From Flammeovirga sp. SJP92 (lineage in GTDB: Bacteria > Bacteroidota > Bacteroidia > Cytophagales > Flammeovirgaceae): a DNA stretch of 64,000 nt. Made by a program: the position numbers and the translations under genes. Every line of letters begins with the position of its first letter. Position 1 is the stretch's first letter. This document shows positions 10,469 through 33,451 of the stretch, in pieces. The notes below the pieces were generated by a model. That model searched no databases. It saw only the letters and a list, made by a program, of their open reading frames with translations, and was not told where the DNA came from. Where the stretch lies: the NCBI RefSeq assembly GCF_001583495.1, contig NZ_LQAQ01000061.1:1-64000 (forward strand). The letters are read 5' to 3'.

Positions 10469-11545
10469 TTATTTCACATTCTTCAAGGCTTTCCAATGCG
10501 GTTCTTGCATTCCTGCCAAGTCAAAGATGGCAAAACCTTTGGCTCCACCTTTTTTGGCCAATTTAATGGCTTCTTCCATATCCTCTTGTTTTGGTAAAGC
10601 AGGTGTATAAAGACCAGTGATCAGTGGCTCTTTGAACTTCCCTTTCACATCAGAAACACCTTGCTCTGTGGCGAATTTGATCCAGTCAATTGGTTCCTCA
10701 TAGAAATTATTATAGATCATTGGGAACACCATGTCCAACTTGTAATCATCCCATGACTGACGGCAGATTTTTCTAGCTAAGTCTGGGTAAGGAAAAACAG
10801 CTGCTGACAGCATACTTCCTTCTTTATGTACAGCATCATAGATTTTATTTACTAAATGTGTAACGGAGTCGTATCTGTACTGACGCCATTCTTCTGATGC
10901 TGTCGGATCTTTTAATTCTTTGATATCAATGCCTGACTCTTCTTTGAACTTCTGTCGGCACGTTTCACAATAACAGAAATCCCACTCAGGGTATTCTTTA
11001 TCTTGTACTATACCGTAAAGTGGCTGAAGTGATGAAGCGAGAATAACATCAGAATATCTTACATAATCCAAATGAACTCCTTTTACTCCTTCAATTTTTG
11101 CCAAAGAAACGGCCTGTTTTACAATATGGTCTTGTACTTCTTCTTTTGATGGGCACACCCATTGATAATAATCAACATATGGGTGGTATTCATAACATGA
11201 ACGTCCATCACCACTTACGGCGTACCAATCTGGATTTTCTTTGGCTACTTTATCTCCATTTCTGTTGAGTGTCCACATCCATGCGTGCATCTCAATATTT
11301 CTGGCTTTCAGCAATGGATACATTCTTTTGTAAGAAGCTTCATTTCCTCCCAAAAGAACACCTTCAATGTTACAGTCTTTGAGTACATCTAATTTCTCTT
11401 CCCATTGAGCGTCTGTCCAATCATCGTGCGAGTGAAGCCACATCCAACGTGTTGGAAGCTTTTTACCTTTTGCTAGTACGGGAAGTCCTAACACGGCCCC
11501 TGCTGTTGCTAGTCCTGCGATTTTAAGAAATTCTCTTTTCTCCAT
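10469..11545 (-). CDS. Putative GHL10-type glycoside hydrolase (TIM barrel)
   Basis: A protein of 358 residues beginning MEKREFLKIAGLATAGAVLGLPVLA, an export signal resembling a Tat leader but with KR in place of RR. The body looks like the glycosyl-hydrolase-like GHL10/DUF187 family: a TIM-barrel opening (WMWLHSHDDW), AWMWTLNRNG near 89, and the signature GVHLDYVRY at 156-164, where Asp160 is the likely catalytic acid. A CYCETC cluster at 191-196 is typical of related proteins. The family is predicted to cut glycans but the substrate is not known. It is the last gene of the mannoglycan PUL, downstream of the CBM9-like gene, with a REP-type inverted pair in the gap between them. Its place suggests a role on the same glycan or on a linked sugar. 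Confidence 0.68.
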   Translation of the reverse strand: MEKREFLKIAGLATAGAVLGLPVLAKGKKLPTRWMWLHSHDDWTDAQWEEKLDVLKDCNIEGVLLGGNEASYKRMYPLLKARNIEMHAWMWTLNRNGDKVAKENPDWYAVSGDGRSCYEYHPYVDYYQWVCPSKEEVQDHIVKQAVSLAKIEGVKGVHLDYVRYSDVILASSLQPLYGIVQDKEYPEWDFCYCETCRQKFKEESGIDIKELKDPTASEEWRQYRYDSVTHLVNKIYDAVHKEGSMLSAAVFPYPDLARKICRQSWDDYKLDMVFPMIYNNFYEEPIDWIKFATEQGVSDVKGKFKEPLITGLYTPALPKQEDMEEAIKLAKKGGAKGFAIFDLAGMQEPHWKALKNVK

Positions 11546-11637
11546 TTTATGTGTAGTAGTTTTTACGAGTATTTATAAGATTTCTTTTTCTTTCTGCTTA
11601 TCAAAATTTCAAATTGCTGTATAGGACCTCAGTAGCA

Positions 11638-11748
11638 ACGTAGCCTGCTACGTGTATGTCAAAAAAAGATGTACTATTTTTTAATTGCACTTTATCAAAA
11701 AAAAATCAACATACGCACATTTTCAGACTATTGCGTAGCAGGCTACGC
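11638..11748. repeat. REPIN-like pair of inverted REP palindromes
   Basis: ACGTAGC-CT-GCTACGT (11638-11653) and GCGTAGC-AG-GCTACGC (11733-11748) are each perfect palindromes. They face each other, with flanks GTAGCAACGTAG and CTACGCTTCTAC also partly complementary, so the whole 110-base segment could fold as a long hairpin. The same unit with the same TTCTACAAG tail occurs twice at 14477-14568. It lies between the CBM9-like and GHL10 genes. A short open frame across it (11669-11854) is not credible as a gene. Confidence 0.7.
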
Positions 11749-11827
11749 TTCTACAAGTCACCCTAACATTATATCATACTTTTTATATTTCAAATCAATT
11801 TTGATTCGCTTCAATCATAAATATACT

Positions 11828-12925
11828 CTAATTCATTTCAATTATATCAGTTGAACTGTCTTCTCTGATAATGTAAATTTTCTTTTCCTGAGGGACTTCC
11901 AATACCAATTGAAAACCAGTAAGTGTTCGTTCCATTTTTGGAGTTACTTCTTCTCCTTCAAAATGCATTTTATCCACTCCACCCAATTCCTCATAGGTTT
12001 TGGCATATACTCTATTTTTTAGAAAGAACTCTTTTTGTTTATAATAGATATCATACAAATGACGGTGTAATCTTTCCCCTTCCGTTTCTTTGATTTCTTT
12101 ACTGACTTTCTCTCCTGCTTTACTTTCCGTAAAATGAAGATAACCCCATTGTTCCGGCATGTGCATAGCAATTTCTCCTTGAGGCGACCATACCCAATTG
12201 TGTTCCGGATAAGGTCTTCCTGTATCAGGATTGATCTTTTTGGCATACTCCCCTTTTTTTGCTTCCAAGTCCCAGTTTACTCTTGAAAAATTGATTCTCC
12301 AACGTGTATCTTCTTTTGGGAAAATGGCTAAGGGATTTTCTTGTCCAATTACTTTCCATGGGAAGGCAATTTCCAATGTCCACTTTTCATCCTTATCAGT
12401 AGGATCATTCAAAGTACCATACATTTTCACCGCTGATTTTAAGCCATCGATATCCCAAGCATTCATATACTTTCCGCCGTCTCTGTAAGGCTTTGTCATC
12501 ATCAAGTCCCAAATAGTATTGAGCAGGTTCATTTCAAACTCATAGTATTGTGAAGACGTTGGTACAGGATTAAGAAATACCTCAAAATCATTGTCTTGAT
12601 AAATCACTGCATCTCTTTCAGTGATTGTACTCCAAAGGTGAGGTTCTTCCAGCTCCGCTGCGATATACAAATAATCTTTATCCCACAACATTTTTACTCT
12701 TGTTTGAAATGGAGGATTAGGTTGTTTGTCTCCTTCAATGTCAACAAAGTCCTGTGTCCATTCAGCATCTGCCCAGTCTTCTTCATCTAAAACACCATCA
12801 ATTTTGATTGGTGCTGAGGATTGAAAACACAAATAACTTTCAGGTGTTGGGTACTTCTGAGCCATGGTTGAAGTGGCTACAAAAAGAGTGATAACACTGA
12901 GGATAGAGATTATTCTTAAAATCAT
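11828..12925 (-). CDS. Secreted CBM9-like carbohydrate-binding protein
   Basis: A protein of 365 residues with a Sec signal peptide (cleavage after STMAQ, about residue 23). Residues 35-270 match the family 9-like carbohydrate-binding module: IDGVLDEEDWADAEWTQDF, the strand VKMLWDKDYLYIAAELEEPHLW, then DNDFEVFLNP and YYEFEMNLLNTIWD. This module is common in secreted Bacteroidetes proteins of PULs and usually has no catalytic residues. The C-terminal 90 residues are charged and have no recognised domain. It lies 60 bases downstream of the GH125 gene and very likely shares its transcript. The simplest role is glycan capture at the surface or in the periplasm, but ligand specificity cannot be read from sequence. 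Confidence 0.78.
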   Translation of the reverse strand: MILRIISILSVITLFVATSTMAQKYPTPESYLCFQSSAPIKIDGVLDEEDWADAEWTQDFVDIEGDKQPNPPFQTRVKMLWDKDYLYIAAELEEPHLWSTITERDAVIYQDNDFEVFLNPVPTSSQYYEFEMNLLNTIWDLMMTKPYRDGGKYMNAWDIDGLKSAVKMYGTLNDPTDKDEKWTLEIAFPWKVIGQENPLAIFPKEDTRWRINFSRVNWDLEAKKGEYAKKINPDTGRPYPEHNWVWSPQGEIAMHMPEQWGYLHFTESKAGEKVSKEIKETEGERLHRHLYDIYYKQKEFFLKNRVYAKTYEELGGVDKMHFEGEEVTPKMERTLTGFQLVLEVPQEKKIYIIREDSSTDIIEMN

Positions 12926-12985: not shown

Positions 12986-14413
12986 TTATTTCAGTAATTC
13001 AGGATGAGTTTGATAAATTTTATATACTAACTCACCAAATAAAGTATTGGTCCATGCAAACCATGAACGTGTATATTTCTCAGGATTGTCTTTATGAAAA
13101 GATTCATGCATAAATCCTGTTCCTGCGTGCGTCGCTTTCAATTGTTCCAAACACCATTTCAATTCTTTTGGATCTTCTGAAGTCAATCCTTTCTGAATAA
13201 TAGACATTGGCCATACATAATCCAAACCTACGTGCGGACCGCCGATTCCTTCATATTTTCCTTTAAAGAAATAAGGGTTGCTGTCTGACCACACAAAGTC
13301 TCTTGTTCTTTGATATAAAGGATCATTGGCATCCATACAGTCCAAGTAAGGCATTGAAAGTAAACTTGGAACATTGGCATCATCCATAAAATATTGGTTA
13401 CCAAAACCATCCACTTCAAAGGCTAAAATTTCACCAAAGTCCAAATGGTCTTTTGTACCATATTTTTTAATGGCATTATCTACCTCTTCAGCTAAAGCTA
13501 AACATTCCTTCGCAAATGCTTTATCCTTCACTAAATTTGTATAAATGTCCGCCAATTGTTTTAATGATGCTACCGCAAATAAATTGGATGGAATAAGGAA
13601 GGGTAATAAAGTTGAGTCATCAGAAGGGCGGAATGAAGATACGATCAAACCACATGGTTTCATAGATGCACCTGCACCCCAGTTGGCCATGGTATCTTCG
13701 TATTTTTGAGTCACTCTTGAGAATGTGTAAGGCCCCACTCCGTCTTTACGTTGTTGCTCTTTGAAAGTCTTTACAATCAGTTTCGCAGACTTCTGCCAAG
13801 TAGCATCAAAAATAGAGGCATCTCCTGTTTTCTTCCAGTAACCATTGGCTAATCTTACCGCATAACATAATGAATCAATTTCCCATTTTCTCTCATGGGT
13901 ACCCGGCTTCATATCTGTGATATCTGTTTCAGCCCATTTTGATTTTACAGTCGGGTCTTTCTCAAATGCATTTGCATAAGGGTCCAATAAAACACACTCT
14001 GCTTGTCGATTGACTAAACCTTTGATCATGGTTTTCAGCTTATCATCCTCATTGGCTAGAGGAAGGTAAGGCCAAACTTGTGCTGTTGAATCTCTCAACC
14101 ACATGGCAGGAATATCACCGGTGATCACAAAGGTGTCTGGGCGGTCTTCATTCATGGTAAATTCAACTGTGGTATCTATTGTATTAGGGTAACAGTTGGT
14201 GAACATCCATCTGAGTTCGTCATCCCCAATTTTCTTCGCTACCTTTTTGATGATTTTCTCAACAGCCTCTGATGTGAATTTTCTTTCCGCAACAGGAGGT
14301 CTATGTGATGTAAATTTATCTTCAAATAATGTTGAGGCCATCGTTGTACCTCCAGCCATTGATAGGCCTGTAGTAAATAATCCAGTGGTTTTGATAAAAT
14401 CTCTGCGTTTCAT
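12986..14413 (-). CDS. GH125 exo-alpha-1,6-mannosidase
   Basis: A protein of 475 residues that starts with a canonical twin-arginine signal (MKRRDFIKTTGLFTTGLSMAGG), so it is predicted to be exported folded. The rest matches glycoside hydrolase family 125: MWLRDSTAQVWPY at 104-116, HERKWEIDSLCYAVRLANGYW at 173-193 (interrupted here only by normal variation), NWGAGASMKPCGLIVSSFRPSDD in the centre, and HESFHKDNPEKYTRSWFAW at 436-454, where Glu437 is a candidate for the catalytic base. Family members are inverting exo-acting alpha-1,6-mannosidases that finish the trimming of N-glycan mannose. It follows the GH2 mannosidase gene on the same strand after a 215-base gap that holds two REP palindromes, and precedes the CBM9 gene. 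Confidence 0.9.
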   Translation of the reverse strand: MKRRDFIKTTGLFTTGLSMAGGTTMASTLFEDKFTSHRPPVAERKFTSEAVEKIIKKVAKKIGDDELRWMFTNCYPNTIDTTVEFTMNEDRPDTFVITGDIPAMWLRDSTAQVWPYLPLANEDDKLKTMIKGLVNRQAECVLLDPYANAFEKDPTVKSKWAETDITDMKPGTHERKWEIDSLCYAVRLANGYWKKTGDASIFDATWQKSAKLIVKTFKEQQRKDGVGPYTFSRVTQKYEDTMANWGAGASMKPCGLIVSSFRPSDDSTLLPFLIPSNLFAVASLKQLADIYTNLVKDKAFAKECLALAEEVDNAIKKYGTKDHLDFGEILAFEVDGFGNQYFMDDANVPSLLSMPYLDCMDANDPLYQRTRDFVWSDSNPYFFKGKYEGIGGPHVGLDYVWPMSIIQKGLTSEDPKELKWCLEQLKATHAGTGFMHESFHKDNPEKYTRSWFAWTNTLFGELVYKIYQTHPELLK

Positions 14414-14628: not shown

Positions 14629-17214
14629 TTAAATATTATTCAAGCATTTTACTTCTAATGCTTTTTTCAATTCTTCAGCATTGATCGTCGTTCTTTCCAG
14701 TGTGATTACTTTTTCTTGATTTGCTTCAAGATGGAAGTAATTATCTGAGAAATGTGCTGTTGCTTCTCCTGCTAGACTTAATGCTACGCTTTCAGCAAAT
14801 ACATCCGACTTCAATTTTATTTTTAAGGTATTACCTTCTTCTACAACAGTTGTTTTGATGTTTGCTTTTGGAAGGATTTGATCTTTTGGTTTAAAGAAGA
14901 ATGCGTAGTTCTTAGCAATAACTTTTCCGTTTGCATCTTCTGCTTCCAACGTCAAATACATTGATTTTCTTTCTTTTAAAGTCGATTTTCTCCCTAAAAG
15001 CTCTTCTAATGTACTCTCTAAAACTACCTTAGAAGTATTTCCGTCTACCTTGATGGGCAACGACTTCTTTACTAGCTCTTTACCATCAAATGTATTCCAT
15101 TTTACATTCAATGTTGCACCAATTTCCTTCCACTCATCATTTACTAACCATACTGTCAGTAATTCATCTTCAATATCAGTAGAAATCAACTGTGGCTCGA
15201 AGGCTCTTTCCGCCGCATAGTGTAATGCTTTCCACTCTCCATAATAATCAATAGAAGACCAAGAGGCAGCAGGCCAGCAATCATCTAATTGCCAGTACAA
15301 CGTACCCATACAGTAAGGCATTCTTCTACGGTGAATTTCAAAACCTTGACGCATACCATCTGCTTGAAGTAGTTGTCCTACGTAAACAAAATCTTCAAAG
15401 TCAGTGGGTACATTAAAATCTCTTTCCATATAGACTTTAATCAAACCATTACCTGTATAGCTTTTCTGGTGTGTATTCATGACATCCGTTTCCAAGCCCC
15501 AATCCTCTTCGATGGTGAATTTCTTGATGGCTTTGAATGAAGGGAAAGATTGGAATCCATACTCACTCATAAAACGAGGAACGTATTCTTTGAAGCTTTC
15601 AAATGGATATTTTCCATGCCAAACTCCCCAGAAGTGGTTATCGCCAATTGTGAAGTCTTCTAAATTACCCCAGTTTGAAATTGGTGATGAAGGATAATAG
15701 AAACGGCCTTCATCATATGTTTTTACCATTTCTGGCAATACTTCTTTAAATAATCTATTGTAATCTTCTAGTAATTTCGCTTGTACCTCTTCAGACCAAC
15801 CGTAAGAATCTTGCCAGCCCCAGTTGTCCCAAGCTACACCTACTTCATTATTACCACACCATAAAGCCAATGATGGTCTATTTCTTAAACGCTTAATATT
15901 GTAAGCTGCTTCTTCTTTTACTTTTCTGATAAAGTCTTTATCCCCCGGATACATTGTACAGGCAAACATAAAATCTTGCCATACTAAAAGTCCCTTCTCA
16001 TCACATTGGTCATAGAAGTAATCACTTTCGTAAATACCACCACCCCACATACGCACCATGTTCATGTGTGCTCTTACCATACTTTCAATCATCCAATCGT
16101 AACGATCTTTTGTCACTGACGGTAAGAAACTGTCCTGCGGAATATAGTTGGCTCCCTTCATAAATACGGGCTGTCCATTGACTTTCACAAAGAAACTTTC
16201 ACCAATACTGTCCGGTTCGTTGATCACTTCCACAGTTCTAAAACCAATTTTATGTGATTCTTGATCCACAAAATTGCCATCTACATTCAATTGTGTGATG
16301 ATTTCGTACCTTGTTTGCTCTCCTAAACCATTTGGCCACCATAATTCTGGGTTCTCAACTTCTGCTTCCAATTCGATCACATTCAAACCTTTATTCAACA
16401 TTACTTTTTTCTCTTGAGAAGAGAATGTTGATGAATTGTTTATCAATCGGATATTGGCGTCTCCCACTACACTTGATTTTACTTCAACCGTAGCTTTCAA
16501 CTTTGCTTTTTCTTCTGTCAAGCTCACTTGCTGTAAGTGAACGTCATTAATTTGGGCACTATTCCAAACCACTAATTCTACAGGTCTCCAAATCCCTGAA
16601 GTCACAAAACGTGGGCCCCAATCCCAACCAAATGAATAAGGTGCTTTACGTGAGTAGATACTGTATTTTTCCTCTCTTGCATCATTGTCGGCAGGATATT
16701 CAAAGCCTGCTTGCTCTCTAAGTGGTTTTGTTATTTTGATTGGTGAATGAAAATAGACTTCCAGTACATTTCCTTTCTCCTTTAATAGTGAGGTTACTTC
16801 TTTATTGTATCCCACAAACATATTGTCGGAAGAGATGACTTTTTTACCGTTTAAAGTAACATCAGCGTAAGTATCTAAACCTTCAAAATTTAAAGCAAAA
16901 TGTTGATTTTCTTTGAAAGAAGTCGGTAAATCAAAAGTTGTTTTGTAAACCCAATCTTCTTCTTCAATCCATTGTAAGTCTTTTTCATTTTGACGGTAAA
17001 ATGGATCTTCAATTAGTTTATTTTGAAATAAGTCAGTGTGCACTACTCCCGGAACGGTCGCAGGGTACCATTGCTCCTTATTGGCTTGTTTAAATTCCCA
17101 ATCGGAATGTAAAGGATAAGATTTTTTCAATTGCTCTTGGCTTTCCCAATCTGTTGAACAACTCAAAATTAGTAGTGATAGAAATGCGTAAGTTAGGTAA
17201 GTAATGTTCTTCAT
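14629..17214 (-). CDS. GH2 exo-beta-mannosidase, lipoprotein
   Basis: A protein of 861 residues with a lipoprotein signal (LILSC, Cys19). It has the GH2 architecture: N-terminal jelly roll with HSDWEFKQ and PGVVHTDLF (35-65), immunoglobulin-like domain, then the TIM barrel with MWGGGIYE at 389-396. The acid/base is Glu457 in WCGNNEV and the nucleophile Glu551 in FMSEYGFQSFPS, both intact. These neighbour motifs (GNNE, SEYGFQS, and the VHTDL loop) mark the beta-mannosidase branch of GH2 and not beta-galactosidase. It would remove the beta-1,4-mannose from the chitobiose core of N-glycans, or from mannan ends. It is preceded by the PNGase F gene with a 67-base gap. Lipidation implies the periplasmic face or cell surface. 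Confidence 0.9.
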   Translation of the reverse strand: MKNITYLTYAFLSLLILSCSTDWESQEQLKKSYPLHSDWEFKQANKEQWYPATVPGVVHTDLFQNKLIEDPFYRQNEKDLQWIEEEDWVYKTTFDLPTSFKENQHFALNFEGLDTYADVTLNGKKVISSDNMFVGYNKEVTSLLKEKGNVLEVYFHSPIKITKPLREQAGFEYPADNDAREEKYSIYSRKAPYSFGWDWGPRFVTSGIWRPVELVVWNSAQINDVHLQQVSLTEEKAKLKATVEVKSSVVGDANIRLINNSSTFSSQEKKVMLNKGLNVIELEAEVENPELWWPNGLGEQTRYEIITQLNVDGNFVDQESHKIGFRTVEVINEPDSIGESFFVKVNGQPVFMKGANYIPQDSFLPSVTKDRYDWMIESMVRAHMNMVRMWGGGIYESDYFYDQCDEKGLLVWQDFMFACTMYPGDKDFIRKVKEEAAYNIKRLRNRPSLALWCGNNEVGVAWDNWGWQDSYGWSEEVQAKLLEDYNRLFKEVLPEMVKTYDEGRFYYPSSPISNWGNLEDFTIGDNHFWGVWHGKYPFESFKEYVPRFMSEYGFQSFPSFKAIKKFTIEEDWGLETDVMNTHQKSYTGNGLIKVYMERDFNVPTDFEDFVYVGQLLQADGMRQGFEIHRRRMPYCMGTLYWQLDDCWPAASWSSIDYYGEWKALHYAAERAFEPQLISTDIEDELLTVWLVNDEWKEIGATLNVKWNTFDGKELVKKSLPIKVDGNTSKVVLESTLEELLGRKSTLKERKSMYLTLEAEDANGKVIAKNYAFFFKPKDQILPKANIKTTVVEEGNTLKIKLKSDVFAESVALSLAGEATAHFSDNYFHLEANQEKVITLERTTINAEELKKALEVKCLNNI

Positions 17215-17281: not shown

Positions 17282-18526
17282 TTAATTTAATTCACCAAAC
17301 AAGTAAGCAGAAACAAACCAGAAGTTTTGTTCTCCTTCCTTCAGTTTTTGTGCTGTTGGCATACTCACCGTAATCTCATGTTGACCCGAAATTTTATCCA
17401 TCGGAATGATCATAGGTGGTACATCTGAACCTGGACACCAGTTAGATCTTGACAAATCCGATGATGCTTCCGGCTCTTCAATTTCTTTCGTTCTGTACCC
17501 TTTGGCTTCCCAATCAATGTAATCTACATTTCTCTTCTTCAACCAAACTCCTGATGTAGGGTTGAATCTACGGAAAGAGGCACAGTCCGTTCTCCAAGGT
17601 GTGAACTTGAAGAATTCTTCTCCATCTAATTTAATGATGTTTTCTGTAGGGACAAACTCATCTCCTCCAGAATGTCCACCATGACCTGTAGTGATATACG
17701 CCAACTGAACATCTTTAGCATTCGCAGGAATTTCTACTGAAGTTCCCACATCTGCTCTTTGGAATTTATCACAACCTCTTTGAGGCGGAATATATCTTAC
17801 AGAATTCAATACTGGAGCTACCCAACGTTTCTTGGCAGGTGCATAGGCATTTTCAGATTCATCAAATCGTAATTTTACATCTACTTTATACCCCTCTTTG
17901 GTCCAAGTGTCAATGTGAACACCGATATACACCTCTCCTTCTAATAAAGGTAAAAGCTGAGTGATATCCTGTTTCCACATCGCTTTTTCTGCCCATCCAT
18001 CAATATAAACCGGCATTCTGTTAGGGTATTTTGAAGTATCTTGTTTTGAATAATGCCCCACTCCAAAAGGAGTCATAAAACGCATCAATTCCACAGCAGG
18101 TTTGTATTCTCCTTCTGCAATCATACCCGGATAATTATCCGTTTGTTCGGCATCATCGCTATGCTTCAACTTGTATTGCTTTTGAGCTACCGTCAACATA
18201 TTCACTCCATTGGCATCCATTACAAACACAGACCCTGCCTTATCCCAACGATCACCTGCTGAAGTTTCCTCTACTATAATAGAGACTTTGGTTTCACGTT
18301 CGAATTTTGGAATATTTAGTTTACGAAGCATGATACGTCCCGATTCAATATAGAAGGGTTGCGTATCACTTACTCTAATGCCGTCTTTTGTCAATTCAGG
18401 ATCAAAGTAAAGGTGCTCTTGATCAAATACATGATAAACTTTGTCTCCTATAGATGGAATTTCTTTAGGTCCACAGCTTACCATTAATACAGTTAAAGCG
18501 AGTAGTTGAAGAATTTGCTGTTTCAT
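17282..18526 (-). CDS. PNGase F-type peptide N-glycosidase, lipoprotein
   Basis: A protein of 414 residues with a lipobox (VLMVSC, Cys18). The sequence matches the two eight-stranded jelly-roll domains of PNGase F. The N-terminal domain has DRWDKAGSVFVMD around Asp95, the likely counterpart of the catalytic aspartate. The second half carries GHGGHSGGDEFVPTEN at 281-296 and WRTDCASFRRFNPTSGVW at 311-328, typical of the family. PNGase F hydrolyses the amide bond between asparagine and the first GlcNAc, releasing intact N-glycans and turning Asn into Asp. Known bacterial PNGase F enzymes are secreted; a lipid anchor here suggests surface retention, so released glycan stays near the SusCD importers. 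The gene starts 10 bases after cutC ends, so the two are translated from one message. Confidence 0.88.
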   Translation of the reverse strand: MKQQILQLLALTVLMVSCGPKEIPSIGDKVYHVFDQEHLYFDPELTKDGIRVSDTQPFYIESGRIMLRKLNIPKFERETKVSIIVEETSAGDRWDKAGSVFVMDANGVNMLTVAQKQYKLKHSDDAEQTDNYPGMIAEGEYKPAVELMRFMTPFGVGHYSKQDTSKYPNRMPVYIDGWAEKAMWKQDITQLLPLLEGEVYIGVHIDTWTKEGYKVDVKLRFDESENAYAPAKKRWVAPVLNSVRYIPPQRGCDKFQRADVGTSVEIPANAKDVQLAYITTGHGGHSGGDEFVPTENIIKLDGEEFFKFTPWRTDCASFRRFNPTSGVWLKKRNVDYIDWEAKGYRTKEIEEPEASSDLSRSNWCPGSDVPPMIIPMDKISGQHEITVSMPTAQKLKEGEQNFWFVSAYLFGELN

Positions 18527-23818: not shown

Positions 23819-26800
23819 TTAGAAGTTAGCATTTAATTTAAACCCGTAAGTTCTTGGGATCGTTAAGTTGGCAAACTCAATACCTTGTCCATTTCCACTA
23901 GTAAATGAAGATTCAGGATCTATGTTATCCGTATTTCTCCATAAATAAAACAGGTTAAAGGCATTGGCTGATACTGAAAGGTTTCGGATCGGTGTTTTTC
24001 CAAGCAAATCATTTGAGAATCGATACGACAAGGTCACTTCTCTTAGTTTTACAAATGATGCATCATAAATAAAATGCTCTGAAATTTGAGATACAGCTCC
24101 ATAATATTGTTCAGGATCAATATTGTCTGTAAAAGGTGAACCATCCTCTCTTACTAAACCTCCAGGATTCCAAGTTTGATTAGGGTCATAAAATTCATCT
24201 CTGCCCGTCAGCGTGGATTCATGCTTACCTAAATTATAGAGATTAGATTCTGTTGAAGAATAGATCTCTCCTCCCCATTTTGAATCAATCAAGAATGAGA
24301 AAGATACATTCTTATAGGTGAATGAGTTTCGTAAACCCGTCATCCATGGTTGTACACCGTTACCAATGATATGAACGCCATCATCAGCCACTGGTCTACC
24401 ACTGTCATCCACTATGATGCTATTGTTATCTGGATGTCTTTTATATTTCTTACCGACAATCACACCATATGATTCTCCAGGAATTGCCTGTACAGACACA
24501 CTTCCTAAGGATAATAACTGGAATGAATTGACACCTTCCGTTAGTGATACCACCTCGTTGTCGTTATAAGCCATATTCAATGTGATATCCCAAGTGAAGT
24601 TATCATTCTGGATTGGCATATAATTCAGCATTAATTCTATACCTGAGTTATCGATCTGACCTGCATTGATCAGCGCTCTTTCAAATCCTGCACCTTTTGA
24701 AATGTCTACACCCAAAATCTGATTGACTGAAGAGGATTTATACCAAGCGAAATCCAATCCAAATCTATTTTCAAAGAATCGAAGATCAATACCAACTTCA
24801 TAAGAGGTTTGTATGGCTGGCTTTAAAGTACTGTTTGGAATTTCCCCCCCTTCAACATTACCAATATTTACTCCATTGTGATTCCAACCATCTAAACCAT
24901 ATCTCAGATTAAGTTTGTAAGGATCTGTATCTGAACCTACTTGTGCTACTGAAGCACGAACTTTACCAAAGGAGAACCAATCCGGCATGGTCCAATCCAT
25001 GTCTGAGAAAATCCATGATGCTGATAAAGATGGATAGAAGAATGAATTATTATTTAATGGCAGTGTAGAAGACCAGTCATTTCTTGCAGAAACATCCAAG
25101 AACAAATATCCTTTATAACCCACCGATGCTGTAGCATACACTGACGCTATTGCTCTTTCGCTTTTTCTGAAATCTTGAAATCTTGAAGAACCAGCAAGAG
25201 GGTTCTGAAAATCGATAGCGGTAAAGTTTTCAGATCCTGAGTCTGTATAATCTACCTCTTTGTGCATATAAGCACCTCCGGCATTGGCGGTAATATCAAA
25301 ATCACCATACTGCTTATGGAACATCAATAAAAAATCGAAGTTGTTTTCTCTATCCAAATTGGTTCTTTCAAAAGCTCTACCTTGAGAAAACCTTGGCGTG
25401 AACAAAGGCTGTAAAACATTCTGACGGAAAGTACTATAATCTGTACCAGCTCTACCCATCAATTTTAAGTAATCAGTAAACTCATAGGTCAAGCTCACCA
25501 TACCTATTATTCTATCCAGCTGATCTTGATTGACCACCTCGTTCAAAGTCCAGTAAGGGTTTTCATCGTCATTATTATAACCAATAGGTCTTCCGGTAGT
25601 TGGATCTTTGTAGTTTTGAAGCCATTCTTCATTAATAGTATTCGGAATTTGGATAAAATTGGCCATGTAGTTATTCACCGAATTACCCATTTCCAAACGG
25701 TTATGCGCTTGCTGATTGACGTAAGTTACTCTTGCATCAAGGGAAAGCTTATCATTGATCATTTGTGTTTTCCCTCTTAGGTTAAAGGTATTCCTTTTAT
25801 ACGTTGAGTGATCCACTTGCCCTTTACTGTCCATATTTCCATAAGAAAAACGTACCGTCGATTTATCATTACTTGAAGTCAATGCAATGTTGGTATTCCA
25901 AGTACGGCCAGTATGGAAAAAGCTTCTGTAGTTATCATAAGCACCCACCGGTCTTGTTACACCATCAAAAAAGCGCATGCTTTGACCATTAATTTTCGGG
26001 CCCCACATTGTTGTTACTGATTTAGGGTCTGAATCAGGAGGAAGCGTTCCGTTTGTACCCTGAGCATACACCTTTTGATCTTTTGGAGTAATTCCCAATG
26101 CATCAAAAGTAACGCCCACATTGAAATCTACTCCCAATGCTTTTCCTTTAGTTCCCGATTTAGTGGTGATCAATACCACACCGTTTATGGCTCTTGATCC
26201 GTAAAGTGCTGTAGCAGAACCACCTTTCAAAACGGACATAGATTCAATATCGTCAGGGTTGATGGAAGATAAACCATCCCCTGTGTTTACATCTCCAGAA
26301 TCAGAACTATCGCCTGCATCTTTGACTTGATTATTAGAAATAGGCACACCATCCACCACATAAAGCGGTTGGTTATTACCACTTAGGACCGCATTACCTC
26401 TTATGACCACTCTTGAAGAAGAGCCAGCTCCACCAGAAACAGGTGCTACTTGTACCCCAGCCACTTTTCCAGAAAGAGAATTCATCACATTGGCTGAATT
26501 ACCTGCTGAACCTAACTCCTCGGACCCCACCTCCGACATGGCATAGCCGAGCGAGCGTTCCGAACGTTCAATACCCAAAGCTGTTACTACAACTTCTTCA
26601 AGTTCTTCGGCATCAACTTCTAATTGGACCATAATGTCTGTCGCTGTAGAAACATCAACTTCTTTGGATTGATAGCCTATAAAAGAGAAAATGAGTGCGT
26701 TTTGATCATCAGTTAGCTGTATGGTAAATTTCCCATCCAAGTCTGTCACAGTACCTGAGGAAGTTCCTTTAACTAAAACATTAACACCCGGAAGTGGTGA

Positions 26801-26905
26801 ATCGTCTGTAATATCTTTTACAGTACCTGTCACCACTTTTTCTTGTGCCAACAAATTACTCTGCATAACCATGATGCACAGTAACATAAGTAAGTATTTT
26901 TTCAT
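23819..26905 (-). CDS. SusC/RagA-family TonB-dependent outer-membrane transporter (pair A)
   Basis: A protein of 1028 residues: signal peptide ending LLAQ, CarboxypepD_reg domain (VTGTVKDITDDSPLPGVNVLVKG, in overlapping segments), a VVVTALGIER TonB-box-like segment near 108, the plug with NQPLYVVDGVPI and SVLKGGSATALYGSRAING, and a 22-strand barrel ending in FKLNANF. There is no N-terminal STN domain, so it should not signal to an anti-sigma factor. It imports oligosaccharide into the periplasm using TonB. It is the upstream partner of the SusD gene 13 bases after it. It resembles the 29172-32255 transporter along its whole length, which points to an old tandem duplication with divergence. 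Confidence 0.93.
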   Translation of the reverse strand: MKKYLLMLLCIMVMQSNLLAQEKVVTGTVKDITDDSPLPGVNVLVKGTSSGTVTDLDGKFTIQLTDDQNALIFSFIGYQSKEVDVSTATDIMVQLEVDAEELEEVVVTALGIERSERSLGYAMSEVGSEELGSAGNSANVMNSLSGKVAGVQVAPVSGGAGSSSRVVIRGNAVLSGNNQPLYVVDGVPISNNQVKDAGDSSDSGDVNTGDGLSSINPDDIESMSVLKGGSATALYGSRAINGVVLITTKSGTKGKALGVDFNVGVTFDALGITPKDQKVYAQGTNGTLPPDSDPKSVTTMWGPKINGQSMRFFDGVTRPVGAYDNYRSFFHTGRTWNTNIALTSSNDKSTVRFSYGNMDSKGQVDHSTYKRNTFNLRGKTQMINDKLSLDARVTYVNQQAHNRLEMGNSVNNYMANFIQIPNTINEEWLQNYKDPTTGRPIGYNNDDENPYWTLNEVVNQDQLDRIIGMVSLTYEFTDYLKLMGRAGTDYSTFRQNVLQPLFTPRFSQGRAFERTNLDRENNFDFLLMFHKQYGDFDITANAGGAYMHKEVDYTDSGSENFTAIDFQNPLAGSSRFQDFRKSERAIASVYATASVGYKGYLFLDVSARNDWSSTLPLNNNSFFYPSLSASWIFSDMDWTMPDWFSFGKVRASVAQVGSDTDPYKLNLRYGLDGWNHNGVNIGNVEGGEIPNSTLKPAIQTSYEVGIDLRFFENRFGLDFAWYKSSSVNQILGVDISKGAGFERALINAGQIDNSGIELMLNYMPIQNDNFTWDITLNMAYNDNEVVSLTEGVNSFQLLSLGSVSVQAIPGESYGVIVGKKYKRHPDNNSIIVDDSGRPVADDGVHIIGNGVQPWMTGLRNSFTYKNVSFSFLIDSKWGGEIYSSTESNLYNLGKHESTLTGRDEFYDPNQTWNPGGLVREDGSPFTDNIDPEQYYGAVSQISEHFIYDASFVKLREVTLSYRFSNDLLGKTPIRNLSVSANAFNLFYLWRNTDNIDPESSFTSGNGQGIEFANLTIPRTYGFKLNANF

Positions 26906-27294: not shown

Positions 27295-29160
27295 CTATTT
27301 TTTACTGTACCATTGTGGCACTGCAATAAAGTGAGTAGCTTCAGAAATTGAACCCCTCTGTCTTTGCATTGCAACACTCACATTGTCACCATTCGCGTTC
27401 AACTCCTTGTTTGGATAAGGGAAACGTGATGGTCTTACATAATCTGTCACACCCCCTCTATGCAATACTACTTCAAATGTTCCATCTAAATTTGCATCTG
27501 TATTTTCAATTGGATCTTTATCATATGAAGGAAGATCATAATCTCTTGCTTCTACAGGAACAACTTTGTTCAAGAATGAAGGGCCTCCAGTACGGTTGAC
27601 TAAAGTAAATGAAGTATATCCATTTCCGATTTGCGATAACCAGTGTTCCGTTACTACAATATCACGTTTATCTGCCGCTGCATTATATCTTGCCACTGCA
27701 TCATTCACATATTGAGTTTTGTTCTCATTGTGATTGTAATCTGGGTTAGTTTGTTCTTTGTAAAGGTTTGAGAAATTGTTCTCATAATCTCCACCACCAA
27801 AACCAAGAGCGTCATATTTTGAAATCGCTAATTCTACACCTCTTCTAAAAGCATCATTATCATTGATACCGTAAGCTGGAATAGTAGAAGCCTCAGCAAT
27901 TAAGAATGCAATCTCATCCGCACCTACAATAATAGAAGGCATCGTTCTGTTGAACGTTGCTGGGTTCATACCTGCAAGTGTGATAAACTGTCCTTCATTT
28001 TGGAAAGTATACTCCGTTCTATCTCCTGCATTTTGATTTCTCCAAAAAGATGCTTGTTGTGTTGCATCTGTATCTTTTCTATAAAACAAACCTCTGTTGC
28101 CATCACCGTTGTCACCAAAACGAAGACCTCTGAAGTGTACTTTCTTGAACTCTCCTTCTGCTCCTGCTTGTGCAAATGGATCAAAATTGTGGTATAATGA
28201 AGGGTTATCTACAGCTTTACTTACGCCTCCTACAACGTCACAATGTGCTACAAGTCTGAAGATGCGTGGATCATGATTAGCTTGCATATATTTCAATGCT
28301 ACTTCAGAAAGATATGCGTGAGAGAAACCACCTACTTGTCCTTCAACAGCAATACCAATACCGTTTACGTGCTGTCCCCAAGGACCACCTGCTTCAACGT
28401 GTCTTACATAAGAAGCATCAGCCCATGATGAAATGTAACCTCCATCATCATTGTAACCCATTTTGAAGATCTCAGCACCTCTAGAAGGGTTAGCCTCTGA
28501 CATCAACATACCAATCTTGATCAATAAAGAGTTGGCTAATTTAGTGTACTGATCTTTCTTATCAGTTGAGGCATCATACGCATCGTGAGAAGTGAATTGT
28601 TCAGCTGAAGAAGCTTTGATGGCAGTTCTTGCATTCAATAGGTCTGTCACCATCATTTCCAATACTTCCTCTTGAGATTCGTATACTGGATAATAGATGC
28701 CTTCTGTGAAGCCTTTACCTGCAGTTGAGTAAGGAATATCACCATACAGTTCAGTAGCACGAAGCATATTCACCACCTTGATGATATCAAACTGAGCGAT
28801 GTAATGATCCACTCCTTCCTCTTGCTCAAGTCTTACTTTTGAGTCCTCAATGTTCTTGATGATATCTTTGAACAATAATGAGAAGGTAGGTTCTGTATAA
28901 CCATCATTGGTAGTGAAACCTATACCTGTTGAGTAAGCACAAGCTGTATTTTGAGCATAAGCTCCACCCATAATGATAGAAGATCTCCAAGCTTCATGAC
29001 CTGAAGCATACATTTTTGCTTGAGAAAAGGCCATGATGTGTTTTACATCGATGTCGTTTGATGTCCAAGGGTTGTCATTTATCTCTTCAAATCTATGAGT
29101 ACAACCCATTAGTGATGATGCAGCAACAGTAGCCGCTAATAATATATTTCTTAATTTCAT
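27295..29160 (-). CDS. SusD/RagB-family glycan-binding lipoprotein (pair B)
   Basis: A protein of 621 residues with lipobox ASSLMGC; the mature protein begins CTHRFEEINDNPWTSND. It shares with pair A the segments HVNG(T/I)G(V/I)AV, YGDIPY, NFDPFAQAG and YVRPSRFPYPNKEL, so the two are paralogues. It is a surface lipoprotein that binds glycan and closes the SusC pore. Between the mature halves the loops differ most (the segments around residues 300-400), the usual site of ligand selectivity, which suggests the two pairs take different oligosaccharides. It starts 11 bases after the susC stop and ends 61 bases before a strong terminator. Confidence 0.92.
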   Translation of the reverse strand: MKLRNILLAATVAASSLMGCTHRFEEINDNPWTSNDIDVKHIMAFSQAKMYASGHEAWRSSIIMGGAYAQNTACAYSTGIGFTTNDGYTEPTFSLLFKDIIKNIEDSKVRLEQEEGVDHYIAQFDIIKVVNMLRATELYGDIPYSTAGKGFTEGIYYPVYESQEEVLEMMVTDLLNARTAIKASSAEQFTSHDAYDASTDKKDQYTKLANSLLIKIGMLMSEANPSRGAEIFKMGYNDDGGYISSWADASYVRHVEAGGPWGQHVNGIGIAVEGQVGGFSHAYLSEVALKYMQANHDPRIFRLVAHCDVVGGVSKAVDNPSLYHNFDPFAQAGAEGEFKKVHFRGLRFGDNGDGNRGLFYRKDTDATQQASFWRNQNAGDRTEYTFQNEGQFITLAGMNPATFNRTMPSIIVGADEIAFLIAEASTIPAYGINDNDAFRRGVELAISKYDALGFGGGDYENNFSNLYKEQTNPDYNHNENKTQYVNDAVARYNAAADKRDIVVTEHWLSQIGNGYTSFTLVNRTGGPSFLNKVVPVEARDYDLPSYDKDPIENTDANLDGTFEVVLHRGGVTDYVRPSRFPYPNKELNANGDNVSVAMQRQRGSISEATHFIAVPQWYSKK

Positions 29161-29171: not shown

Positions 29172-32100
29172 TTAGAAGTTAGCATTTAACTTGAAGTTCA
29201 ATGTTCTTGGAAGTGCTAAAGTCGCTGACTCAACACCCGATACATTTCTTGAACTGAAACTTGCTTCAGGGTCAACATTTGGAGTGCTTTTCCATAAGTA
29301 ACCTACGTTAAATGCTGAAGCAGTTAGGCTTAAGTTTTTGATTGGAGTTTTTTGCATCCATTGCTTAGGGAACATGTACGAAACTGAAACCTCTCTAAGC
29401 TTAATGAAAGATGCATCGTATAAGTTAAACTCTGCAATTCCTCCATAACGGCCCCAGTACTGTTGTGGATCTACGTTACCTTCAAATTTCTCATAAGTAA
29501 CATCTCCATTATCTCCTTCCACAGCTGTGTAAAGGTTGCCAGGGTTCCAAGTACCTCCGTTGTAGAATTCTTCTCTTCCTGCCACTGTGTTTTCATGCTT
29601 ACCAGAAGCATACATTGAAGCATTTGTTGAAGAGTAGATATCGCCACCAAACTTACCGTCAATAAGGATTGATAAGCTTAAGTTTTTATAGTTGAATGTG
29701 TTTCTCCAACCTGCCATCCAAGGCTGTACACCGTTACCGATGATTGAAGGCTCATCTTCTTGCATGATACGACCTTCGCCGTCTACTACAAATCCTCCTT
29801 CAGGAGTTCTTAATGCTTTCTTCGCAACTAATGCTCCGTAAGCTTGACCTGGGTTGGCTTGGATAGAAATACCACCTGCTGAAGCAATTTCATAGAAATC
29901 TACGCCTTCTGTTAATGAAACTACTTCGTTATAGTTATATGCCGCATTTACAGCTGTAGTCCATTTGAAGTTTCCTTTTTCAATTGCTTTGAAATCCATT
30001 GCAAATTCCCAACCTCTGTTCACAATCTCACCTGCGTTGATGATTGCTCTGTCATATCCTGATACATCTGAAATAGATACTGGGATAATTTGATTTACAG
30101 AAGATGATGAGTAACGTGCAACATCAATTCCTAACTTATCATTGAATAATCTTAAGTCCATACCAAATTCATAAGAAGTTTGGATTGCTGGCTTCAAGTT
30201 GGCATTTGGAATATCATTTCCTTTGATGTTACCGAAGTTTAAGCCGTTGTGATCCCAGTTATCAATATCATATTGTAAATACAAGCTATATGGATCTGTT
30301 GCTGAACCAACTTGTGCCCATGAAGCTCTTAACTTACCAAATGATAACCACTCAGGAACACTCCAATCCATGTCTGAGAATACCCAAGTACCTGATAATG
30401 AAGGGTACAAGAATGAGTTATTGTGCATTGGTAAAGTTGATGACCAGTCATTACGAACAGAAGCATCTAAGTATAAATAACCATTGTAACCTACTGAAGC
30501 TGTTGCATATAATGATGTCATCATCATTTCATAAGTAGAGTACGATTGGAATACATCACTACCTGCTCCAGGGTTTTGGAAGTCAGATGATGAGAATTTT
30601 GATGATCCTACATCTGTGAAGTTTCTGATTTGGTGTAAATAAGCACCACCTGCGTTCACATTGATATCAAATTTACCTACTTTCTTGTTGTATGAAATTA
30701 AGAAGTCTGAGTTTGATTCCATTTCAAGGCTCGTTCTTTCAAACGCTCTACCTTGTGGTTGCCATGGAGAATATAATGGATCTAATAAATTCAATCTCAT
30801 TGCACCGTAATCAATACCTGTACGACCTAAGATTTTTAAGTCATCTGTGATGTCATAAGTTACTGAAGCCATACCTACCACACGATTCAACTCATCCTCA
30901 TTTTTACGCTCATGAATATACCAATAAGGGTTTTGATCTTGGTTTGTATAACCAATTGGTCTACCTAAATCATCTTTGTAATCTTTCAACCAGTGGTGTG
31001 AAATTGTAGAAGGCATACCAATTAACATTGACATATATGAGTTAACTGAACTACCCATAACCAATCTATTATTCGCTTTCTGATTGGTGTAGTTAAGACG
31101 AGCATCAACTTTAATTTTCTCACTCAATTTCACATCACCTTTAATTGAGAAAGTGTTTCTCTTATAAGTCGAGTTTTGAACCATACCACGGTTATCCATA
31201 TTCGAGTAAGAGAAACGGATAGACCCTTTTTCAGTTGATCCATAAGCACTTACCGATGTATTGCTAGTTAGACCTGTACGGAAGAAATCATCGTAATTAT
31301 TGTAATGCGTAAGTGCTCTTTCCTTACCGTCATAATAAGCTGTGTTTAATTGTCCTTCGATTTTTGGCCCCCACATCCCTAACTGATCTCTATCTGAAGC
31401 TAAACGGCCATCTGAACCGTTACCGTATACGCTTTGCTCATTTGGAGTAATTCCAATGAAATCCATTGAGAATCCTTGTGAGAAATCAACACCTGATGAT
31501 CCTTTTTTACCTGACTTTGTTGTGATTAAGATTACACCATTGATGGCTCTTGAACCGTAAAGTGCTGTTGCTGAACCACCTTTCAATACTGACATTTCAG
31601 CAATATCATCAGGGTTCAATGATGAAAGACCGTCACCTGTTGAGATATCTGACTCATCTCCATCGCTACCATCTGCTAAGATGTTATTTGAAATCGGGAC
31701 TCCGTCAATTACATATAACGGTTGGTTATTACCACCTAACATAGCGTTACCACGGATAATCACTTTTGAAGCAGAACCTGCACCATTAGAAGGAGTGATT
31801 TGTACACCTGCCACTTTACCAGACAATGAGTTCATCATGTTACCGGTAGCGGCACCGTTGCCCATATCTTCTGCTTTTACACCTTGTACGGCATAACCAA
31901 GAGATCTTTCCTCTCTTTCAATACCTAAGGCTGTCACAACTACTTCATCAAGTTCCTCAGCATCAATGTCTAATTTTACATTAACTTTAGATGATGAAGC
32001 AACATTAACTTCTTGTGTTTGATAACCTATAAATGAAAATACTAATGTTTTCTGTTCTTCTTTTAATAAGATTGTGAATTTACCATCAAGATCTGTAACA

Positions 32101-32255
32101 GAACCTAATGAAGTACCCTTTACTAAGACATTCACGCCCGGAAGTGGCGAATTGTCTGTAGCGTCCTGAACTATACCAGTTACTGCTCGCTCCTGAGCAT
32201 AGGTGTTACCTAACATCCAAAGGATGCCTAATAACGTTAGTAGACATTTTTTCAT
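29172..32255 (-). CDS. SusC/RagA-family TonB-dependent outer-membrane transporter (pair B)
   Basis: A protein of 1027 residues beginning MKKCLLTLLGILWMLGNTYAQ, a normal signal peptide. The longest frame would start three codons earlier at a TTG; the ATG at 32255 is preferred. CarboxypepD_reg domain, plug (NQPLYVIDGVPI, SVLKGGSATALYGSRAING) and barrel are complete, with a terminal aromatic F as needed for barrel assembly. No STN domain. It imports released mannoglycan fragments with TonB energy. It is the first structural gene downstream of the DeoR-type regulator gene on the same strand, after a 338-base gap. It is paralogous to 23819-26905; barrel loop lengths differ, for example an insertion near the C-terminus (ENTVAGREEFYNGG onward). 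Confidence 0.93.
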   Translation of the reverse strand: MKKCLLTLLGILWMLGNTYAQERAVTGIVQDATDNSPLPGVNVLVKGTSLGSVTDLDGKFTILLKEEQKTLVFSFIGYQTQEVNVASSSKVNVKLDIDAEELDEVVVTALGIEREERSLGYAVQGVKAEDMGNGAATGNMMNSLSGKVAGVQITPSNGAGSASKVIIRGNAMLGGNNQPLYVIDGVPISNNILADGSDGDESDISTGDGLSSLNPDDIAEMSVLKGGSATALYGSRAINGVILITTKSGKKGSSGVDFSQGFSMDFIGITPNEQSVYGNGSDGRLASDRDQLGMWGPKIEGQLNTAYYDGKERALTHYNNYDDFFRTGLTSNTSVSAYGSTEKGSIRFSYSNMDNRGMVQNSTYKRNTFSIKGDVKLSEKIKVDARLNYTNQKANNRLVMGSSVNSYMSMLIGMPSTISHHWLKDYKDDLGRPIGYTNQDQNPYWYIHERKNEDELNRVVGMASVTYDITDDLKILGRTGIDYGAMRLNLLDPLYSPWQPQGRAFERTSLEMESNSDFLISYNKKVGKFDINVNAGGAYLHQIRNFTDVGSSKFSSSDFQNPGAGSDVFQSYSTYEMMMTSLYATASVGYNGYLYLDASVRNDWSSTLPMHNNSFLYPSLSGTWVFSDMDWSVPEWLSFGKLRASWAQVGSATDPYSLYLQYDIDNWDHNGLNFGNIKGNDIPNANLKPAIQTSYEFGMDLRLFNDKLGIDVARYSSSSVNQIIPVSISDVSGYDRAIINAGEIVNRGWEFAMDFKAIEKGNFKWTTAVNAAYNYNEVVSLTEGVDFYEIASAGGISIQANPGQAYGALVAKKALRTPEGGFVVDGEGRIMQEDEPSIIGNGVQPWMAGWRNTFNYKNLSLSILIDGKFGGDIYSSTNASMYASGKHENTVAGREEFYNGGTWNPGNLYTAVEGDNGDVTYEKFEGNVDPQQYWGRYGGIAEFNLYDASFIKLREVSVSYMFPKQWMQKTPIKNLSLTASAFNVGYLWKSTPNVDPEASFSSRNVSGVESATLALPRTLNFKLNANF

Positions 32256-32593
32256 GTTTGTCAAAAGAATAGAATTAGATACGAAAATAAAGTTTGATAC
32301 ATTTAGGTATAGAGCGTCCCCTTCACCTACTGTAGCTAAAGCCTTTTTTGTAAAAAAAATTTAAATTTAGAATCGAAATTCGTGTTGTCTGTCGTCAGAT
32401 TGAAGTTAATACACAATTTCAACCATTCTTTGTCATTTGAAGAACTACCATCTTGAAAAATTAGGGAATAGGAATCCAGTCCCACTCTTTCTAAAAAGTG
32501 AATTCAGATAAATAAACAGTGTTAGTAATTGATTTTGTTGTGTATTTAGGGCTTTTTTTAATTCATTTCATTTCATGCTTCATGCGATTTGGA
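32256..32593. other. Leader region upstream of susC pair B
   Basis: No credible ORF, no perfect TAnnTTTG on the minus strand and no hairpin with a T run. It follows the regulator gene directly, so read-through is possible; a regulated promoter probably lies here but I cannot point to it. A GCATGAAGCATGAAATGAA-like direct repeat is visible on the minus strand near 32580. Confidence 0.4.
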
Positions 32594-33376
32594 CTAAATG
32601 ACCTCGACTCCTTCATTTACAAACGGTCGCAGTACATCGGAGGTAGGATTAAGTTCCGTAATAATCGTATTCACATGCTTTAGCTTAACACCTAAGAAAG
32701 GCTGAGCAGTCATTAACTTATCTGAAGCTGCTACTGAAATCACCTTTCTTGAGGCATTTGCCATTGCCCCTTTCACTTCTACTTCTTCTCTATCGATATC
32801 AGTAATACCACGGTTGACATCAATACTTCTTGTTCCCATAAAGCATAAATCTGCTTTAATGTCTGACAACTCATTGATTACAGAATAACCAACAGTTACC
32901 AAAGCATTTGGAAGCAACTTTCCTCCCAAGAAATAAACATCAAGAAAACGATAAGGAGCCAGACTTGTTGCTATAGGTAAACAGTTTGTGATAATGGTTG
33001 CTTTCAAGTCTTTTGGCAACTTTTTCGTAATCTCCAAGTTGGTGGTACCACCGTCAATCAAAATTACTAAGTCATCTTTGATCAAAGAAATTGCTTTATC
33101 AGCGATTACTTCTTTTTTAGCTTTTGAATAGACTTCTCTATCTTCATAACTGAATGGAATATAAGAAGATACATCTGAATGCTCTTCGGTGCTATCTGCA
33201 TTTTTCACTGCACCTCCATGCACTCTTCTGATTTTTCCAGAATCAGACAACTCACGCAAATCTCTTCTGATTGTATCTTCTGATACATTCAGGGAAATGC
33301 TCAATTCAGATGATAAAACTTTATTGTTTTTTCTGATTTCATCCAAAATAAATTGTTGTCTTTCTTCTTTTAGCAT
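32594..33376 (-). CDS. DeoR-family transcriptional regulator of the PUL
   Basis: A protein of 260 residues. The N-terminal helix-turn-helix (residues 1-57) has the DeoR signature LNVSEDTIRRDLRELSDSGKIRRVHGGAV. The DeoRC sensor domain (about 75-235) has ILIDGGTTNLEITKKLP, IITNCLPIATSLA, FLGGKLLP and FMGTRSIDVNRGITD, the phosphosugar-binding set. The longest frame starts at 33472 and adds 32 hydrophobic residues, but that stretch overlaps the promoter and operator; ATG at 33376 gives the usual MLKEERQQFIL start. Family members usually repress and are released by a sugar phosphate. It is the first gene of the PUL on the minus strand and carries tandem 10-bp repeats over its own promoter, indicating autoregulation. 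Confidence 0.9.
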   Translation of the reverse strand: MLKEERQQFILDEIRKNNKVLSSELSISLNVSEDTIRRDLRELSDSGKIRRVHGGAVKNADSTEEHSDVSSYIPFSYEDREVYSKAKKEVIADKAISLIKDDLVILIDGGTTNLEITKKLPKDLKATIITNCLPIATSLAPYRFLDVYFLGGKLLPNALVTVGYSVINELSDIKADLCFMGTRSIDVNRGITDIDREEVEVKGAMANASRKVISVAASDKLMTAQPFLGVKLKHVNTIITELNPTSDVLRPFVNEGVEVI

Positions 33377-33419
33377 TTTATGATCGTGACTAGATGAATA
33401 AAGTGTTTTGATTACACCA

Positions 33420-33451
33420 CAAACATATAAAAACACGCATAAACACGCAAA
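33420..33451 (-). promoter_or_regulatory. Promoter of the DeoR-type regulator gene
   Basis: On the minus strand TTTG (33448-33451), a 20-base spacer and TATGTTTG (33420-33427) match TTTG-N20-TAnnTTTG exactly. The start point would fall near 33413, about 37 bases before the ATG. Confidence 0.75.
33421..33450. promoter_or_regulatory. Tandem 10-bp direct repeats: putative autoregulatory DeoR operator
   Basis: Three units in exact 10-bp register: AAACATATAA, AAACACGCAT, AAACACGCAA. They span the -33 to -7 region of the regulator gene promoter, the classical place for a repressor. The 10-bp period puts every unit on the same face of the helix. Confidence 0.75.

Follow-up and report, generated by a model that had tools for sequence, protein, structure and literature searches.

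A locus of twelve open reading frames (ORFs), all on the minus strand and centered on a PNGase F, occupies positions 10469-33472 of a 64,000-nucleotide stretch from Flammeovirga sp. SJP92 (contig NZ_LQAQ01000061.1, positions 1 to 64,000 of the forward strand; this whole stretch is called the window here). The genome is 8.49 Mb in 123 contigs, and the window has a G+C content of 36%; the SusCD genes and the named relatives fit an origin in the Bacteroidota. The predicted use of N-glycans by this locus is well supported by its enzymes. The most informative of the twelve genes is that of a CutC family protein, which the initial annotation had only listed. The explanation we favor, and hold to be rather probable as a whole, is that the locus serves N-glycan breakdown, that the pathway is split with a second locus, and that CutC is an enzyme of N-acetylglucosamine (GlcNAc) entry. 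Gene content, conservation, neighborhood and co-occurrence are the observations behind it; the reactions, compartments, regulation and CutC substrate that it would entail are proposals.

CutC beside PNGase F and glycosylasparaginase

PF09112 was present in 16 of the 58 genomes of the kinship set, including all nine of the window's genus. Sixteen further PNGase F loci were compared with that of the window, 17 in all, and 11 of them had the conserved arrangement: the window, eight loci of the same genus, and one each in genomes G012 and G010. In all 11, the order GH92-CutC-PNGase F-GH2 (GH, glycoside hydrolase family) followed a DeoR gene, with CutC directly before PNGase F. This core order recurs in every one of the nine genomes of the genus and in two other genera, which is beyond chance. 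CutC and PNGase F also adjoin in Persicobacter, and CutC was found in 14 of the 15 phylum genomes with a full-length PNGase F vs 78 of the 281 others.

CutC was present in 92 of 296 genomes of the phylum, and hence is not universal; the locus copy is the only one in the window genome. Its neighborhoods were examined at 93 of 96 matches (the window and two rows of a broken copy in G094 were left out), with 27 regions from the same genomes as controls. A glycosylasparaginase (AGA) gene lay within 8 kb of CutC at 47 of the 93 loci vs none of the 27 control regions, a count made in six frames because the ORF caller had missed CutC at seven of the 93. One control region (L157) gave a match to the CutC model. 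The AGA gene was upstream of CutC on the same strand, with a domain gap below 400 bases, at 33 of the 47 loci, which span 30 of 56 genera and 11 of 20 families. No other same-strand neighbor cluster of CutC exceeded 10 loci; GH20 was near CutC at nine of the 93 loci, GH92 at eight and nagB at five. Judged by its sequence, the AGA that was tested is a genuine glycosylasparaginase, scoring 536 bits with 3LJQ and 1P4K, both labelled N(4)-(beta-N-acetylglucosaminyl)-L-asparaginase, vs 143 bits with isoaspartyl peptidases.

The reverse search, in which the AGA alignment was run against named genomes, gave a similar picture. Among the best 80 of 581 relatives, CutC was downstream of AGA on the same strand at 62 loci, including those of Flavobacterium, Chryseobacterium, Elizabethkingia, Pedobacter, Pontibacter and Chitinophaga; many of these also carried GH20 and a GH2 beta-mannosidase, and one Chitinophaga locus had an MFS transporter and a ROK sugar kinase before AGA-CutC. 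In the 98 same-strand pairs from the 93 and 80 loci, between which genomes may be shared, AGA and CutC overlapped in 30 and were separated by 0-30 bases in 24. An apparent AGA-CutC fusion (L125) was an ORF-calling artefact. Neither CutC with glycosylasparaginase nor CutC with PNGase and GH92 was found in the open-licence literature, which is weak evidence.

The two genes also occur together across genomes (AGA threshold 388 bits, set by eye). AGA was present in 84 of 92 genomes with CutC vs 35 of 204 without it, although the Fisher tests applied to such counts ignore descent. Within the window's class, the figures were 60 of 62 vs 0 of 11, with the listing of the CutC-less genomes assumed complete from list order; seven of these 11 had weaker AGA-like matches below the threshold. 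In one genus (g47), AGA was present in 13 of 13 genomes with CutC vs 0 of 4 without, a table that is a local one, and in the rest of the phylum in 24 of 30 vs 35 of 193.

Function of CutC

The CutC of the locus (18537..19280, minus strand) matches PF03932 with 262 bits, and its modelled barrel (predicted local distance difference test, pLDDT, 97.5) matches the folds of human CUTC and Shigella CutC, to which it is about 49% and 42% identical. The next folds are MJ1099, phosphoribosylanthranilate isomerase, thiamin phosphate synthase and other phosphate-binding barrels. In 58 sequences of the phylum, E6, R25, E27 and D126 never vary, and R60, R62, H122, R123 and H199 hardly do. The family match starts within 25 residues of the ORF start in 145 of 151 ORFs, which makes a signal peptide unlikely. 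CutC is probably a cytoplasmic enzyme of GlcNAc entry or amino-sugar use rather than a protein of copper handling.

Neighborhoods outside the phylum point to the same compound class. A tblastn search of a plasmid collection with the window CutC gave 67 records, and 26 neighborhoods were hand-picked from 50 rows, with no control set. Rows from Listeria, Fusobacterium and Burkholderia, from the remaining enterobacteria and from some near relatives were left out of the sample, which includes near-duplicates (two loci each of Pseudoalteromonas, Sinorhizobium and Rhizobium). The genes scored were those for a ROK or BadF-type kinase, GH20, nagA, nagB, murQ, AGA, PNGase F and GH92. At 21 of the 26 loci, an amino-sugar or N-glycan gene or such a kinase lay within about 6-8 kb of CutC; five of the 21 (Palleronia, Asticcacaulis, two Pseudoalteromonas, Streptantibioticus) had no more than the kinase, with or without an M81 gene. 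Eleven annotated or named loci helped to define the second scoring panel; among the 10 loci that were unannotated or came later, nine scored. For example, pSymB of Sinorhizobium meliloti carries amidase-ROK-CutC near nagA, SIS, GlcNAc kinase and murQ genes. Paracoccus saliphilus has nagA, ROK and DeoR genes opposite CutC, with nagB also present; Loktanella has GH20-M81-MFS-CutC with nagB, and Kozakia has CutC-GH20 with nagB. Two Hymenobacter loci carry AGA-CutC pairs with GH92 and ROK, and Persicobacter carries SusC-SusD-CutC-PNGase F with GH92 on both sides.

Other genes were noticed in these stretches. An M81-type metallopeptidase gene recurs near CutC in Alphaproteobacteria and Streptantibioticus (L284, L287, L289, L300, L301, L306; annotated in three loci, scored in the others), mostly in the company of GH20 and an MFS transporter; this might be a link to glycopeptides. 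In L285, L286, L290, L293 and L304, a Gfo/Idh/MocA oxidoreductase gene stands right after CutC or, in the two Pseudoalteromonas, a few genes further on, which suggests an oxidative amino-sugar step. On a Novosphingobium plasmid (L303), CutC-SIS-NagA occurs together with GH92, and the edge of the stretch holds a weak, partial AGA-like match; this may be an N-glycan locus in an alphaproteobacterium. After PNGase F of Persicobacter comes a transglutaminase-core protein (L297:10057-11355, plus strand), and the gene that follows PNGase F on contig C8 of G010 looks similar by eye.

The action of PNGase F, like that of glycosylasparaginase, yields a glycosylamine. As CutC stands beside either of them, our best single guess for its substrate is the product they share, GlcNAc beta-glycosylamine (1-amino-GlcNAc) or its 6-phosphate. 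Phosphoribosylanthranilate isomerase also acts on an N-glycosylamine, but at 13% identity to CutC this is only suggestive. A reading that joins two claims, CutC as a cytoplasmic enzyme for the GlcNAc glycosylamine and human CUTC as the enzyme for like products of NGLY1 and AGA, is a tentative proposal to which we give a rather low probability. Several observations weigh against the favored view of CutC. No AGA lies within 8 kb at 46 of the 93 CutC loci, and 35 genomes carry AGA without CutC. In the window genome itself, the two genes are not neighbors, since AGA lies on a different contig. At the six PNGase F loci outside the conserved set, CutC was not found in the stretches of 9.7 to 34 kb. 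Five of the 26 plasmid loci (Cetobacterium, Entomospira, Nonomuraea, E. coli and Enterococcus gallinarum) gave no amino-sugar context, and we know of no AGA in the minimal cell that retains CutC. Most CutC loci outside the Bacteroidota lack AGA and PNGase F; the theme in common is therefore amino-sugar catabolism, which favors GlcNAc over the glycosylamine.

This last point leads to the main alternative, that CutC acts on GlcNAc or GlcNAc-6-phosphate itself, for instance in anomer or epimer exchange. In Alphaproteobacteria, GH20, nagA, nagB, murQ and ROK kinase genes surround CutC, and in most cases AGA and PNGase F are missing; the folds next in line after CutC are, as noted, phosphate-binding barrels. 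Within the phylum, however, the partner of CutC is AGA (47 of 93 loci) far more often than GH20 or GH92, and nagB is rare. We regard this alternative as a serious one, with a probability not far short of even.

It is unlikely that CutC is a protein of copper or another metal that merely travels with these genes. The family name and the old E. coli genetics speak for such a role, and the relevant passages of PMC4993169, in which the CutC kept by the minimal cell ranks among proteins of unknown function, suggest that the metal it binds is not copper and might be zinc. For E. coli, however, the part of PMC6538781 concerned attributes the sensitivity of cutC mutants to copper to the small RNA MicL, and a metal protein would leave unexplained both the joint presence and absence of CutC and AGA within one genus and the overlap of the two genes. 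The possibility that the AGA-CutC and PNGase-CutC neighborhoods are inherited gene order with no functional meaning is very improbable: the loci are related by descent, the tests are uncorrected for it and the order is largely common within genera, but AGA-CutC loci extend over more than half of the genera and families, no other same-strand neighbor forms a comparable cluster, and the window's genus keeps CutC with PNGase F while its AGA lies elsewhere.

Genes of the locus and the proposed N-glycan pathway

The initial annotation had listed the genes from regulator to GHL10-type protein on one strand, and Pfam and NCBIfam matches agree with it for all twelve open minus-strand ORFs. Two adjoining SusC/SusD pairs together with GH92, GH2 and GH125 make the locus a polysaccharide utilization locus. 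The regulator gene (32594..33472) has both an HTH_DeoR domain (56 bits) and a DeoRC sensor domain (128 bits), which places the protein in the DeoR/GlpR family; its true start is probably near 33376, because the family match begins only at residue 38 of the ORF. SusC1 (29172..32264; TIGR04056, 671 bits; SusC/RagA in NCBIfam) and SusC2 (23819..26905) are TonB-dependent outer-membrane transporters with plug and CarboxypepD_reg domains. Each is followed by a SusD lipoprotein: SusD1 (27295..29160) matches PF12741 and PF12771, and SusD2 (21937..23832) matches PF12771 with 148 bits. This double set is found in the window, G004 and G008; seven of the other conserved loci have one pair, and G010 has none between DeoR and GH92. 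As the initial annotation stated, no sigma factor is encoded; family scans found none among the twelve proteins. Two G010 genes that might have been taken for a sigma/anti-sigma pair do not resemble one in sequence.

By homology, four enzymes would act on N-glycans. The GH92 alpha-mannosidase (19426..21693; PF07971, 574 bits, N and C domains matched) is nearest to the alpha-mannosidase structures 6F91, 6F8Z and 7ZGM. The GH2 enzyme (14629..17214; 866 bits), which has mannosidase Ig domains, is nearest to the beta-mannosidase 2JE8 and its variants, and the GH125 alpha-mannosidase (12986..14413; PF06824, 554 bits) to 3P2C (613 bits). The PNGase F (17282..18526) is of the short, type I-like form: PF09112 (167 bits) and PF09113 (164 bits) span residues 32-409 of 414, and there is no N-terminal bowl domain. 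Its nearest structures are 3KS7 (399 bits, 48% identity) and 4QHB, with the longer PNGF-II structures scoring about half as much. Group 1 PNGase structures are known from B. fragilis and B. vulgatus according to the passages of PMC9522356 on this group, and 3KS7 and 4QHB are presumably these; BF0811 of B. fragilis is described there as cleaving complex and high-mannose, but not plant, N-glycans. Of the six PNGase F loci at which no CutC was found, five have the longer form of the enzyme, and one (G027) has a GH125 homolog.

On this evidence the main claim of the initial annotation, an N-glycan utilization locus around PNGase F, is borne out, and the relatives add glycosylasparaginase, GH20, GH97 and more GH92. 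Its statement that the enzymes together can release N-glycans and strip alpha- and beta-mannose agrees with the matching enzymes but is incomplete, because GH20 and AGA lie on another contig. GH20, GH18 and GH84 gave no match among the locus proteins, so that the locus has no known chitobiose-cleaving family. The genome as a whole has two GH20 and six GH92 genes. Contig C111 carries one GH20, three GH92 and AGA, among them a second N-glycan locus (L281) with AGA-GH92-GH20-GH92 on one strand. In G012 and G010, AGA and further GH92 genes stand beside the homologous locus. The pathway is thus probably divided between two or more loci. On the opposite strand of L281 is a 972-aa protein that by eye resembles a propeller-type sensor regulator.

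By eye, the N-termini of PNGase F, GH92 and GH2 are lipoprotein-like, and those of GH125 and the GHL10-type protein resemble twin-arginine (Tat) signals. Therefore trimming would take place in the cell envelope, with either side possible. Release at the cell surface, as first proposed, is a conjecture: lipoprotein-like N-termini fix no side, and the passages of PMC9522356 on Bacteroides PNGases predict these to be periplasmic. Control by the DeoR-type protein is plausible. The gene heads all 11 conserved loci, but no shared palindromic operator was found: no exact dyad (6-base arms, gap 0-11) was common to at least five of 17 intergenic stretches; degenerate sites would escape this search.

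In the scheme we propose, PNGase F would cut the glycan off asparagine, and the SusCD system would take glycan or glycopeptide across the outer membrane. GH92 and GH125 would remove alpha-mannose and GH2 the core beta-mannose, and chitobiose and GlcNAc-Asn would be finished by GH20 and glycosylasparaginase from the second locus. CutC would then act in the cytoplasm on 1-amino-GlcNAc or its 6-phosphate. That the locus instead serves mannan or another mannose polymer is very doubtful: GH92 and GH125 also occur in mannan loci, but PNGase F and the likeness of the GH2 enzyme to 2JE8 indicate the N-glycan core, and relatives of the locus carry AGA and GH20.

GH125, a CBM9-like protein and a GHL10/DUF4015-type protein come next in 10 of the 11 conserved loci, the exception being G012. 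The CBM9-like protein (11828..12925; PF06452, CBM9_1, 48 bits) appears to be a partner of the GHL10-type protein (10469..11545), since the two genes adjoin or are one gene apart at 24 of 30 loci, the window included (30 of 44 loci, 1.5 kb flanks). The GHL10-type label given initially is right as to the type of secreted TIM barrel, but PF02638 scored 24.6 against a cut-off of 27.9, while DUF4015 (PF13200, 31.6 bits) passes. The protein was found in 44 of the 296 phylum genomes; AGA is present in 39 of these 44 vs 80 of the 252 others, and lies directly beside it at six of the 30 loci. A sequence search gave no solved relative. The nearest folds to its model (pLDDT 87.8) are Cwp19 and the C-terminal domain of PgaB, for which a GlcNAc complex is solved (4P7Q). 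This suggests that the protein may have a hexosaminidase-type role on the chitobiose core. G012, with GH20 after GH2 and no GHL10, had prompted the idea that GHL10 is a plain substitute for GH20; the idea was weakened by L282, where GH20, AGA, GHL10, a GH18 gene and CBM9 share one strand. A GH20-CBM9 fusion in L282 was not confirmed by Pfam. GHL10 and N-glycan were not found mentioned together in the open-licence literature, which is weak as evidence of absence.

Around this core the loci vary. Exo_endo_phos and GH97 genes follow GHL10 in seven of nine genus members (L020, L021, L023-L027; the GH97 of G001 is split), and the window and G004 have neither at that place. In Chitinophaga L245, AGA-CutC is also followed by an Exo_endo_phos gene of a similar kind. 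Upstream IspH and SpeD genes are common to all eight other genus members. Downstream of the locus, the window encodes a fusion-like protein (7757-10315, minus strand) with an erythromycin-esterase-type domain and then a CarboxypepD_reg-like domain.

Relation to known systems

N-glycan loci are known, and this one is a variant of them that is well conserved. As in the Bacteroides loci for plant N-glycans described in parts of PMC9522356, release would be by PNGase, and GH92 and SusCD genes are neighbors in some species. Unlike those, so far as these parts describe them, it combines a short type I-like PNGase on one strand with CutC, GH2, GH125, CBM9, GHL10 and DeoR; a term search of the text of PMC9522356 found neither CutC nor GHL10. 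The high-mannose pathway of B. thetaiotaomicron, cited in the same paper, likewise uses alpha-mannosidases and SusCD, but there release is ascribed to surface GH18 endo-beta-GlcNAcases. The AGA-CutC pairs of Flavobacterium, Chryseobacterium, Elizabethkingia and others resemble the locus in linking CutC with N-glycan core enzymes, often with GH20 and GH2; in them CutC comes after AGA (in Elizabethkingia miricola with an extra ORF between the two), whereas here it precedes PNGase F. The alphaproteobacterial clusters, such as that of S. meliloti pSymB, join CutC to a ROK kinase, nagA, a SIS protein and murQ, with a DeoR/GlpR regulator as well in P. saliphilus; unlike here, no N-glycan enzymes were seen in those stretches.

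In sum, the locus is a compact N-glycan toolbox that includes a secreted candidate enzyme of the GHL10/DUF4015 type. The role of CutC has been unsettled, with its copper phenotype in E. coli put down to a small RNA (PMC6538781) and the minimal-cell protein still classed as unknown in the part of PMC4993169 that treats it. For this widespread, human-conserved protein, the neighborhoods now name a compound class, and its function is thus testable. Because human cells make the same glycosylamines, the result may also bear on the human NGLY1 and AGA disorders.

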